From Streptomyces coelicoflavus (GTDB lineage: Bacteria > Actinomycetota > Actinomycetes > Streptomycetales > Streptomycetaceae): a DNA stretch of 64,000 nucleotides. The notes beneath the pieces were generated by a model, which had not been told where the DNA came from, did no database searches, and saw nothing but the letters and a program-made list of their open reading frames with translations. The position numbers and the translations under genes are program-made. The number at the start of each line of letters is the position of its first letter. Within the stretch, counting starts at the first letter, position 1. Shown piece after piece: positions 1 to 64,000 of the stretch. The DNA lies in assembly GCF_003112555.1 (NCBI RefSeq), contig NZ_BEWB01000006.1:186001-250000 (forward strand), in the 5' to 3' direction.

Positions 1-173
1 CGGCGCCGCTTGGCACGGGCCTCGGAGGCCTCGGCGAGGGCAGCCCAGTCCGGCGTGTTGTCACTGTTCCCGCTGTTCCAGGGCTGCTGCGACTGAGGCT
101 GCTGCGGCTGCTGCTGCGATTGCGGTGTCCAGGGATCCCACTGCGACTGAGGTCCCCCCTGCCCAAAGCTCAT
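1..173 (-). CDS. 5' end of a hypothetical gene (partial)
   Basis: The first 57 codons of a leftward gene that runs off the left edge. The ATG lies at 171-173. The N-terminus is low complexity: a Gly/Gln/Pro/Ser-rich stretch with runs of Gln-Gln-Pro, then a more ordered Trp-Ala-Ala-Leu-Ala-Glu-Ala-Ser-Glu-Ala segment. Disordered Gln/Pro-rich N-termini of this kind are common on actinobacterial membrane or secretion-associated proteins. The part visible here does not identify a family, so no function is assigned. It is divergent from the membrane glycosyltransferase that starts at 248. Confidence 0.6.
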   Translation of the reverse strand, partial: MSFGQGGPQSQWDPWTPQSQQQPQQPQSQQPWNSGNSDNTPDWAALAEASEARAKRR

Positions 174-61459: not shown

Positions 61460-62530
61460 TCACGCGTCCGAGCCGGCCTTGCGCCGGCGCACCACGAACA
61501 CCGCACCGCCGCCGACGACCACGGCGAGCCCGCCGACGAGGCCGATCACCGGCAGCGCCGAGCCGGCGCCGGTCGAGGCGAGGCTGCCGGTGACCTCCGG
61601 GGCGTCGGCGGCCTGCTTCTCGACGGTGACGGGCGCGACGGGTGCCTTGCCGCCTTCCTGCGGCCGGGTGCCCTCCGTGTCCGTGCCGGGGGCCACGATC
61701 CGGAACTTGTAGGCGACGTCGCCGAAGCCGGTGCACTCGCCGTCGGCGTCGCCGTAGATCGTCGCGCCGAGCGTGAAGCCCGCGCCGACCGGAGCGCCGG
61801 CCCGCACGTTGATCCGCATCGGGATGGCGACCTCGTAGTCGGGCGCCAGCTCGTCGGTGTAACCGATGTATCCGACCGCGTAGCCGAGTTCGTCGAGGTC
61901 CTCCCAGGACTCGTCCTGGGGGTTCCAGGCCTGGAGGCCGACCTTCTCGCTCTCGAACAGGTCCTCGCCGTCGAGGTCGGCGGAGGCGCCGGCCAGGTAC
62001 TCGAGGTTCTGAAGCGTCGAACCGGAGTTGTTGGCCACGTTCAGCGAGAACTCGTGCCAGCCGCTGCCCGCCGCGATCTCGCCGGGCAGGCCCTCGATGT
62101 CGACGTCGACCTTGGTGTCCGCGCACACGGACGGCTCGGGGTCCGGGGCCTGCGATTCCTCCGGTTCCCCCGATTCCCCCGATTCCTCCGGAGCGGAGGC
62201 GCTCGGGGACGGGACCGCGGGGGCGGACGTGGTCGACTCCGAGGAGTCGGGGGCGGGGGACTCCTCCTCGCCGGTGCCCTCCTCGCCGGTTTCCTCCGTC
62301 GCGCTCGGGGAGCCCGTCGGGCTGCCTGTGGCGTCGCCGGGAGCGGGGTCGGTCGCGGTCTCGCTCGCCGTCTCGTCGGTCACATCCGTCTCGTCCGGTG
62401 AGGCGGACGTGGAGGCGGACGGGGACGCCGACGTGTCACCCGTCGCATGGGCGGACGGGGCCGCGAGGAGCGCGGCGGGGGCGACCACCGCCGTGACGGC
62501 GGCTGCGGCCAGGGCGCGACGAAGCTTCAT
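61460..62530 (-). CDS. sortase-anchored LAxTG surface protein
   Basis: 356 residues. Signal peptide MKLRRALAAAAVTAVVAPAA with cleavage after AHA. A ~120-residue Ser/Thr/Glu/Pro-rich stalk follows, then a ~170-residue beta-type domain (VDIEGLPGEIAAGSGWHEFS and so on, with one Cys pair CADT ... GECTGFG). The sorting signal is LASTG at 317-321, then a hydrophobic helix and RRRKAGSDA. LAxTG motifs are used by class E sortases in Streptomyces. ATG 62530. An 8-bp-arm palindrome lies just upstream. Confidence 0.88.
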   Translation of the reverse strand: MKLRRALAAAAVTAVVAPAALLAAPSAHATGDTSASPSASTSASPDETDVTDETASETATDPAPGDATGSPTGSPSATEETGEEGTGEEESPAPDSSESTTSAPAVPSPSASAPEESGESGEPEESQAPDPEPSVCADTKVDVDIEGLPGEIAAGSGWHEFSLNVANNSGSTLQNLEYLAGASADLDGEDLFESEKVGLQAWNPQDESWEDLDELGYAVGYIGYTDELAPDYEVAIPMRINVRAGAPVGAGFTLGATIYGDADGECTGFGDVAYKFRIVAPGTDTEGTRPQEGGKAPVAPVTVEKQAADAPEVTGSLASTGAGSALPVIGLVGGLAVVVGGGAVFVVRRRKAGSDA

Positions 62531-62552
62531 GCCCGGTGTGATCAACGAAACC

Positions 62553-63049: not shown

Positions 63050-63337
63050 TCAGACGCGCCCGCGGCACAGCTCCAGCATCGTCATCGCCAGCGCCGTGCC
63101 CGGCTTGCCCAGCGCCTGCCGGTAGTGGTCGAGCACCTCCATCTCGCGCGAGAGGTTCACGCGCCGGCCGCCCGAGGTGATCCGCGCCTCCTGGATGACC
63201 GCGGAGACGGCCATCCGTTCCTGGATCAGCCCGATGATCCGGTCGTCCAGGGAGTCGATGCGCTCGCGCGCGCCGGTGATCACGTCGGCGGCCTCGGGGG
63301 TGTGGGCGCCGGTCTTGTCCGAAGCGGTGGCGGTCAT
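63050..63337 (-). CDS. chorismate mutase (AroQ type)
   Basis: 95 residues from ATG 63337, with GAGGAGCC upstream. Helical AroQ fold: ITGARERIDSLDDRIIGLIQ, ERMAVSAVIQEARITSGGRR, then VNLSREMEVLDHYRQALGKP. The active-site Arg, Lys-equivalent and Glu positions fit the stand-alone mutases of Streptomyces. It converts chorismate to prephenate for Phe and Tyr. Its ~180-base leader holds a terminator and a Phe/Tyr-containing peptide (separate entries), suggesting attenuation. Confidence 0.9.
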   Translation of the reverse strand: MTATASDKTGAHTPEAADVITGARERIDSLDDRIIGLIQERMAVSAVIQEARITSGGRRVNLSREMEVLDHYRQALGKPGTALAMTMLELCRGRV

Positions 63338-63394
63338 GTCGGTGGCTCCTCGCCGAAGGGTGGCGGCACCCCGGACCGGCACGGTCCGCAAACG

Positions 63395-63431
63395 CCAGGC
63401 GCCCCGGACCTTGTCGGCCCGGGGCGCCTGG
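63395..63431 (-). terminator. attenuator-like terminator in the chorismate mutase leader
   Basis: Perfect 13-bp stem (63395-63407 with 63419-63431; CCAGGCGCCCCGG and its complement), 11-base loop, followed on the minus strand by CGTTTG. It lies 20 bases after the leader-peptide stop and 58 bases before the mutase start. Confidence 0.75.
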
Positions 63432-63450
63432 GAAGTCGCTTGTCAGTTGC

Positions 63451-63522
63451 TCAAGCAGCACGACCATGGCAGCCGGTGGGCCGGTTGCCATAGGTAAACA
63501 GGAAGGTCTGGTGCTTGCGCAT
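63451..63522 (-). CDS. 23-residue leader peptide with Phe/Tyr codons
   Basis: ATG 63520-63522 to TGA 63451-63453. The peptide begins [18 protein letters not shown], with Phe7, Phe9 and Tyr11 close together. These are the end products of the branch opened by the mutase downstream. A hairpin (63467-63490, 10-bp arms with one G.U, loop of 4) overlaps codons after Tyr11. The -10 box sits 6 bases before the ATG, so the mRNA may start at the A of the ATG and be leaderless. Confidence 0.6.
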
Positions 63523-63528
63523 GGGCCC

Positions 63529-63557
63529 AGTATGCCCCCGCGACGGTCGGTGTCCAA
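63529..63557 (-). promoter_or_regulatory. promoter of the leader peptide-chorismate mutase unit
   Basis: Minus strand: -35 TTGGAC (63552-63557), 17-base spacer, -10 CATACT (63529-63534), then GGGCCC and the peptide ATG. Good match to a vegetative promoter. Confidence 0.65.
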
Positions 63558-63634
63558 GCCGGTTCGCATGGTGAGACCCGGCGGCGGGACCCGGACCGGG
63601 GAGACGGTGGGGCCGGGGCGCCCGCCCACCTCGG

Positions 63635-63640
63635 TAGAAT
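63635..63640 (+). promoter_or_regulatory. possible -10 box of guaA
   Basis: TAGAAT, 40 bases before the guaA start; no convincing -35 was found at the right distance. Confidence 0.35.
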
Positions 63641-63680
63641 CGGGAGGACAAGCCCCCGCCCGACCGCCGGAAGGCACCCC

Positions 63681-64000
63681 GTGTCATCAGCGACTCCCGC
63701 TGCCGCCGCCCCCGACACCGTCCTGGTCGTCGACTTCGGCGCGCAGTACGCCCAGCTCATCGCCCGCCGTGTCCGCGAGGCGCGGGTCTACAGCGAGATC
63801 GTGCCGAGTTCCATGCCGGTCGAGGAGATCCTCGCCAAGAACCCGGCGGCCATCATCCTCTCGGGCGGCCCCTCCTCGGTGTACGAGCCGGGTGCCCCGA
63901 CCCTCGACCGCTCCCTGTTCGAGGCCGGCGTCCCCGTCTTCGGCATGTGCTACGGCTTCCAGCTGATGGCGCGGACCCTCGGCGGCACCGTCGACAACTC
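63681..64000 (+). CDS. guaA: GMP synthase (partial, N-terminal amidotransferase)
   Basis: The first 106 codons, cut by the right edge. GTG 63681. After a short Ala/Pro leader, [20 protein letters not shown] is the glutaminase start, [16 protein letters not shown] the oxyanion strand and [15 protein letters not shown] carries the nucleophile Cys. The enzyme amidates XMP, the product of GuaB. Convergence of guaB and guaA in one 23-kb stretch is the actinobacterial arrangement. Confidence 0.95.

Follow-up and report, generated by a model that had tools for sequence, protein, structure and literature searches.

A candidate Phe/Tyr-responsive attenuator in the leader of the chorismate mutase gene of Streptomyces coelicoflavus

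Is the short reading frame in front of the chorismate mutase gene of S. coelicoflavus a sensor of Phe and Tyr, and how would it act on the gene behind it? The locus lies on the minus strand, near the end of a stretch of 64,000 nucleotides that was analysed as a whole (the window). A preliminary description of this DNA had suggested translation-coupled attenuation for an aromatic pathway gene. The suggestion is supported here by comparison across the family, in which the core of the peptide, the first stem and the terminator are conserved. By its anatomy the element matches a ribosome-mediated attenuator, and the leader is very probably a transcription attenuator of this kind, controlling chorismate mutase in response to Phe and Tyr.

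The locus and its leader

The features of the locus are as follows.

63562–63577, minus strand: conserved upstream DNA motif GTCTCACCATGCGAAC, a possible operator, from motif counts
63552–63557, minus strand: -35 hexamer TTGGAC, from the sequence, with a 17-nt spacer to the -10 hexamer
63529–63534, minus strand: -10 hexamer CATACT, from the sequence and a promoter scan, ending 6 nt 5′ of the leader ATG
63451–63522, minus strand: putatively leaderless ORF for the leader peptide, 23 codons and TGA, with its ATG at 63522–63520
63490–63504, minus strand: control codons Phe7 (TTC), Leu8, Phe9 (TTT), Thr10 and Tyr11 (TAT), three aromatic codons within five
63466–63491, minus strand: hairpin 1:2 (P1), 10 bp, AUGGCA(A)CCGG/CCGG(C)UGCCAU, overlapping the codons past Tyr11
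63419–63476, minus strand: candidate antiterminator 2:3, from folding, swap and shuffle tests
63395–63431, minus strand: terminator hairpin 3:4, a 16-bp stem with one G-U pair and the loop GACAA, arms 63431–63416 and 63410–63395
63394–63389, minus strand: terminator tail CGTTTG, from the sequence
63346–63351, minus strand: ribosome site GAGGAG of the mutase gene, from the sequence
63050–63337, minus strand: chorismate mutase (AroQ-type), 95 residues, by Pfam CM_2 and NCBIfam equivalog NF005894

The promoter, with its 17-base spacing and its end 6 bases before the ATG, was found where the preliminary description had put it. The same is true of the 23-codon frame with two Phe codons and one Tyr codon in five positions, and of the 10-bp hairpin that overlaps the frame. 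A terminator does precede the ribosome site of the mutase as described, but its stem, at 16 bp with one G-U pair, is longer than the 13 bp given there. A promoter scan of 63300–63700 returned one site, against a mean of 0 in shuffled sequence, and read it as the overlapping hexamer TGGACA at 16-nt spacing. The predicted first base of the transcript is 63522, the A of the ATG. The 5′ end of P1 falls inside the Tyr11 codon. The RNA from 63521 to 63385 folds at -81.4 kcal/mol, compared with -53.5 ± 4.1 in 200 shuffles (z = -6.8). An Rfam scan of the whole window gave 0 matches at the gathering score, and a scan of 10 related loci gave five sub-threshold hits, none of them at the family threshold.

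The solved structures closest to the mutase include M. tuberculosis Rv0948c. The genome holds one further CM_2 match, which is on a different contig. The divergent gene that starts at 63681 encodes a glutamine amidotransferase domain and is guaA by eye. Farther along, positions 61460–62545 of the minus strand hold a 361-residue frame with a Thr/Ser/Glu-rich N-terminal half, a C-terminal hydrophobic segment and an RRRK tail; by eye it resembles a secreted surface protein, and it has no Pfam match.

Distribution of the leader and the pattern of its peptide

With a cut of E ≤ 1e-3, 382 of 392 Streptomyces genomes gave a match to the leader DNA (221 bp). When 35 of the genomes were rechecked, 25 weak ones each had a placed match (E ≤ 4.1e-4); the other ten, unmatched at first, had a best E of 0.0014, and inspection found the leader before the mutase gene in four of these. 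The mutase gene lies downstream in all of the 30 best leader loci. Mean pairwise identity across 30 main-clade loci is 0.962 for the leader, with 0.968 at the third codon positions of the peptide, against 0.875 for the mutase coding sequence and 0.664 for the upstream DNA, a contrast between leader and gene that is inflated by the choice of these loci for leader similarity.

A covariance model, R1, was made from 27 Streptomyces sequences; its structure comprised P1 and the terminator. It matched 170 of 200 genomes of the family at E ≤ 1e-3. By a count from the table, 127 of the 200 pass E ≤ 1e-8, and they represent 16 of the 17 genera. Genus g14 gave weak matches only (best 1.4e-7), and the three that were inspected (L151, L180 and L181) are non-leaders. 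Among 20 genomes with a negative or weak result for the leader, a search for the mutase ortholog at E ≤ 1e-8 found none in 14. Four of the remaining six have the leader, and in one more the locus is interrupted by a contig end. The sixth, a g14 genome, carries a distant mutase homolog (42% identity), and no leader was seen in the upstream DNA inspected. Leader and mutase gene mostly co-occur or are both absent. Genus g14 and several Streptomyces were seen to lack both the leader and a mutase ortholog (E ≤ 1e-8).

A class-wide search with R1 matched 148 of 394 genomes, and many of the matches listed cover the terminator only. Inspection of 59 further loci left 31 mutase leaders and 17 leaders of DAHP synthase genes; L151, L167–L171, L176, L180 and L181 were set aside as false, and L162 (an antisense match on the reverse strand beside a DAHP-type leader) and L178 (a DAHP-type leader) were left uncounted. 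Outside the family, a leader-like sequence precedes the mutase gene at two loci in f37 and one in f48.

The leader set comprises 127 loci, with some genomes represented twice, and 34 diverged leaders remain after a cut at 85% identity. The gap from the -10 hexamer to the start codon is 6 or 7 nt at 118 of the 127 loci and 4 or 5 nt at the other nine (4–9 allowed). In all 34 diverged leaders the start codon comes 5–7 nt past the -10 hexamer (script window 4–9). For L070 the -10 given by the script is an artefact of the window edge, the sequence having CATACT at a gap of 7, and for L123 and L143 it is CATACT read two bases out of place.

Codon usage in 43 ORFs of the window predicts 28 Phe and Tyr codons among the 790 of the 34 diverged leaders; the count is 121, about four times as many (p 9e-41 in a binomial test that ignores relatedness). 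The codons used are also unusual. Among Phe codons, TTT accounts for 33 of 81 in the leaders and 5 of 292 in the window ORFs; among Tyr codons, TAT accounts for 30 of 40 and 6 of 282. This bias is partly built in, as TTTACCTATGGC served as the anchor for the Streptomyces loci and was learned by the model. TAT also pairs in P1. Because TTT, unlike TAT, is outside the P1 pairing, slow decoding at TTT may be proposed. Three Phe/Tyr codons among the 22 of the S. coelicoflavus leader are unremarkable taken singly (p about 0.04), and the case rests on conservation, not on the aromatic codon count of this one leader.

The pattern is retained in diverged peptides such as MRKQLSFLFTYGTGRSGRHGSS, MQNAQWFTYGTGPAGCHGRSV and MMRHAAFFTYGTGPAGCQVKRCLPH. 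Their N-terminus is variable, while Tyr-Gly hardly changes and F-[TS]-Y-G is very frequent; the core also occurs as FFFY, FYYG and FAYG, and L145 has a single aromatic codon left. Trp stands at or before the Tyr position in one of the 34 mutase leaders (L053, by eye).

The upstream motif, in the form GTCTCANNATNCG[AG]AC, usually begins 55–58 nt 5′ of the leader start codon, and is also found at L197 1501–1516. It is present within 3 mismatches at 80 of the 127 leader loci, 59 of them within 1, while the reversed control gave 0; among the diverged leaders it is present in 11 of 34. The one exact copy elsewhere in the genome lies just 5′ of a homoserine dehydrogenase gene (by eye) and is paired with an inverted GTGAGAC. 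The motif is possibly the operator of an amino-acid regulator, and it may resemble the LtbR operator of C. glutamicum. NdgR was considered as its owner and rejected: the ChIP-seq consensus of this regulator differs, and two target tables in the same paper contain neither chorismate mutase nor guaA (PMC4340878).

The hairpins and the candidate antiterminator

Pairs were counted on an alignment of 33 sequences, A3, which was fitted to the structure of P1 and the terminator and from which L173 is out by the E-value cut. For P1 and the terminator together, 95.9% of the cells are paired, compared with 34.5–51.9% in slid controls, and the covariation score is 0.210, compared with 0.032–0.068. Nine pairs changed on both sides, eight of them in the terminator, that is, in 8 of its 15 pairs. 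P1 is nearly invariant over the 33 leaders, with both-side changes in one pair only, and its outer pairs are 94.5% paired. In a partner-swap test with 32 leaders, P1 gave z = -4.0 and the terminator z = -10.2. The terminator is well supported by these comparisons, and P1 is supported by its constancy and by the swap test. Conservation in related species had been named in the preliminary description as a point on which its reading could fail; the check did not refute it, and the terminator has compensatory changes.

The short U-run had been pointed out beforehand as a weakness, rightly. The tail is just CGTTTG, and a scan of the locus for terminators with a T run found none. Of the 118 tails found among the 127 loci, 60 have CGTTT after the stem, compared with 10 of the 7,110 18-mers taken from the window; a CGTT-like tail is present in just 15 of the 34 diverged leaders. 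Among 2,115 transcript ends mapped by Term-seq in S. griseus, 293 were reported to have a GC-rich stem, 'CGT' and T-rich sequence next to it (PMC8914203).

The antiterminator was left unproven in the preliminary description. A candidate, 2:3, was identified here. It pairs CCGG 63476–63473 with 63422–63419, UGCC 63471–63468 with 63428–63425, and UGG 63466–63464 with 63431–63429, and encloses an inner helix (63457–63452/63442–63437) that includes the UG of the stop codon. The 2:3 helix is mutually exclusive with both 1:2 and 3:4. When the RNA under a ribosome at Tyr11 was removed and the terminator 3′ arm was left out as not yet made, the remainder folded into one long hairpin of region 2 and the terminator 5′ arm, often with the inner helix at the stop codon.

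At least six 2:3 pairs form in 34 of 34 native leaders, but also in 30 of 34 on average after region 2 is shuffled, so the mere presence of the fold was dropped as a test. The extent of pairing is more informative. Native leaders form a mean of 14.5 pairs between region 2 and the terminator 5′ arm, compared with 10.6 after shuffling (maximum 12.2 in 100 sets; 34 leaders), and the mean energy of the stall fold is -27.6 kcal/mol, compared with -24.0 with region 2 shuffled (lowest -25.1 in 100 sets). Fifteen of the 34 leaders exceed 90% of their own region-2 shuffles. In the swap test the native interaction is -15.2 against -12.5 with permuted partners (z -5.2; z -3.6 for the outer helix), but the native partner ranks first in just 4 of 32 leaders, with a median rank of 8. 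L142 and L173 are out of this set by their arm pattern, and the 3′ part of L152 ran into the terminator; the permutation and binomial tests take no account of relatedness.

The inner helix was not significant by duplex energy in the swap test (p 0.19). Because the cut at the stop codon had split this helix, it was recounted with the first two bases of the stop. A helix of at least 5 bp including the UG of the stop codon is then present in 15 of 34 leaders, one of them (L152) spurious and inside the terminator itself, compared with 5.4 in shuffled controls (maximum 15 in 2,000) and 7.2 in swapped ones (maximum 14). Its pairs differ among leaders, as in GUCUG/CAGAC, GCCUG/CAGGC, GCAUG/CAUGC and UGUGUG/CACACG.

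Counts for 2:3 on A3 are mixed. The paired cells amount to 86.8%, compared with 30.5–50.1% when slid, but shuffles reach 85.5%. The covariation score of 0.107 tops every slide (0.022–0.067) and compares with 0.087 ± 0.008 in shuffles. There are 6 double-change cells against 1.3 in shuffles, with 40 of 500 shuffles reaching the native number, but the slides +2 and +3 exceed it with 11 and 10. Pair types are not above shuffles (345 of 500 reach the native number), and the outermost three pairs are broken in a third of the cells. The candidate antiterminator is moderately supported by these comparisons, and it is the weakest link in reading the leader as an attenuator.

Proposed attenuation by Phe and Tyr and its alternatives

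In the proposed mechanism, transcription would begin with the A of the leader AUG, and ribosomes would initiate on this leaderless codon. With ample charged Phe- and Tyr-tRNA, the ribosome would reach the stop codon and mask both the inner helix and region 2, leaving 3:4 to form as the terminator and, presumably, to end transcription. When Phe- or Tyr-tRNA is scarce, the ribosome would stall at Phe9 (UUU) or Tyr11 (UAU) and mask region 1. In the cell, region 2 would then pair with the 5′ arm of the terminator while region 4 is still to be transcribed, and the polymerase would go on into the mutase gene. Without translation, 1:2 and 3:4 would both fold and transcription would stop. The terminator is thermodynamically favoured; therefore the switch would have to be kinetic.

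R1 also finds leaders before DAHP synthase genes in family f17, for example MQRNFWRFYGYRP... and MRTAFWFWYGDGP.... The 17 loci, in 10 genera, are L154–L161, L163–L166, L172, L174, L175, L177 and L179, and are mutually related rather than independent cases. Their leaders have a -10-like box 6–8 nt 5′ of the ATG (gaps of 5–8 allowed) and a terminator. The downstream protein is a DAHP synthase in the four tested, and the other genes were assigned from the MVIVM-type start alone. Phe and Tyr codons are present in 17 of 17 of these leaders and Trp codons in 16 of 17. They are apparently a sister family of attenuators, and the codon content would fit the pathway step, with Phe, Tyr and Trp at the common entry and Phe and Tyr at the branch. 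In S. coelicoflavus itself, visual inspection of some 400 nt upstream of the class II DAHP synthase gene and of the prephenate dehydratase gene showed no leader.

These observations bear on other readings of the leader. The functional product could be a structured cis RNA that senses a ligand, or an sRNA ending at the terminator, with the peptide incidental. The leader's higher identity than the mutase gene (0.962 against 0.875) and the 0.968 at third positions of the peptide would suit such an RNA, though locus choice inflates the contrast. Yet frame, start distance and aromatic codons persist where the RNA sequence diverges, Rfam gives no family at threshold, and the DAHP synthase leaders alter the codon set and not just the fold; we regard this explanation as very unlikely. 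A slimmer chance still is given to a nascent-chain arrest peptide, in which the F-T-Y-G core would stall the ribosome via the exit tunnel and sense free Phe/Tyr or some other signal rather than charged tRNA. The nearly invariant Tyr-Gly, the very common F-[TS]-Y-G and the variable N-terminus are what such a peptide might have, but about 10 residues at the stall are judged short for tunnel contacts, the pairing of P1 also constrains UAU and GGC, and the core is altered in the variants FFFY, FYYG and FAYG.

The short U tract, the empty T-run scan and the moderate support for 2:3 would all agree with a plain 5′ UTR that has a Rho-dependent or a constitutive partial terminator and does not respond to amino acids. 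Such a UTR would leave unexplained the conserved leaderless ORF, the aromatic and rare codons, and the codon content that tracks the pathway step, and we consider it scarcely probable. Attenuation by Phe and Tyr might also be part of something wider. The leader RNA or peptide could act beyond its own gene, either as a terminated RNA of about 125 nt in trans or as one ancestral aromatic module that passed between the chorismate mutase gene, with Phe and Tyr codons, and the DAHP synthase gene, with Trp codons in addition, and whose codons were adjusted to each step of the pathway. Action of the terminated RNA in trans is conceivable because the main-clade leader, including the spacer and the terminator loop, is more conserved than the mutase gene; overall we consider a role of this sort unlikely.

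Comparable systems have been described. The E. coli pheL-pheA system is attenuated through a Phe leader (PMC11802643), and resembles the present one in that a Phe-controlled leader peptide precedes a gene whose product has chorismate mutase activity, a likeness drawn from the description of pheL. It differs in that the Streptomyces leader is putatively leaderless, has Phe and Tyr codons, and precedes a monofunctional mutase. In C. glutamicum, aroR-aroF combines a Phe-Tyr-Phe leader peptide with a DAHP synthase gene, and the attenuator was reported to respond to the availability of Phe and not of Tyr (work of Neshat et al. 2014, through PMC11802643 and PMC4046766). It is likewise actinobacterial, with a Phe/Tyr leader before an aromatic pathway gene, as judged from the descriptions in these two papers; its DAHP synthase target is nearest to that of the f17 leaders, whereas the target here is chorismate mutase.

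Leader peptides of S. lividans TK24 include leuL, trpL, ilvL, thrL, metL and alaL (PMC8079986, Table 4). Like the present one they are Streptomyces peptides that are short, mostly described as leaderless, and placed before amino-acid or tRNA-synthetase genes; none of the 8 peptides of that list is for Phe or Tyr, and the main text of the paper does not contain the word chorismate (PMC8079986). Seliverstov et al. (2005) stated that there were no conserved RNA elements before Phe/Tyr operons in Actinobacteria (PMC1262725). No report of this mutase leader was found in the literature covered, which includes four Streptomyces transcriptome papers, with supplements and most subscription papers outside the coverage.

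The leader is near-universal in the sampled Streptomyces and is present in 16 of the 17 sampled genera of the family. Therefore, the Phe/Tyr branch in these bacteria likely has its own charged-tRNA switch. The leader would offer a ready-made sensor of Phe and Tyr and a point of intervention in strains whose antibiotics derive from aromatic precursors. Together, the mutase leaders (Phe/Tyr) and the DAHP synthase leaders (Phe/Tyr/Trp) would form a natural series on codon content and what an attenuator senses.
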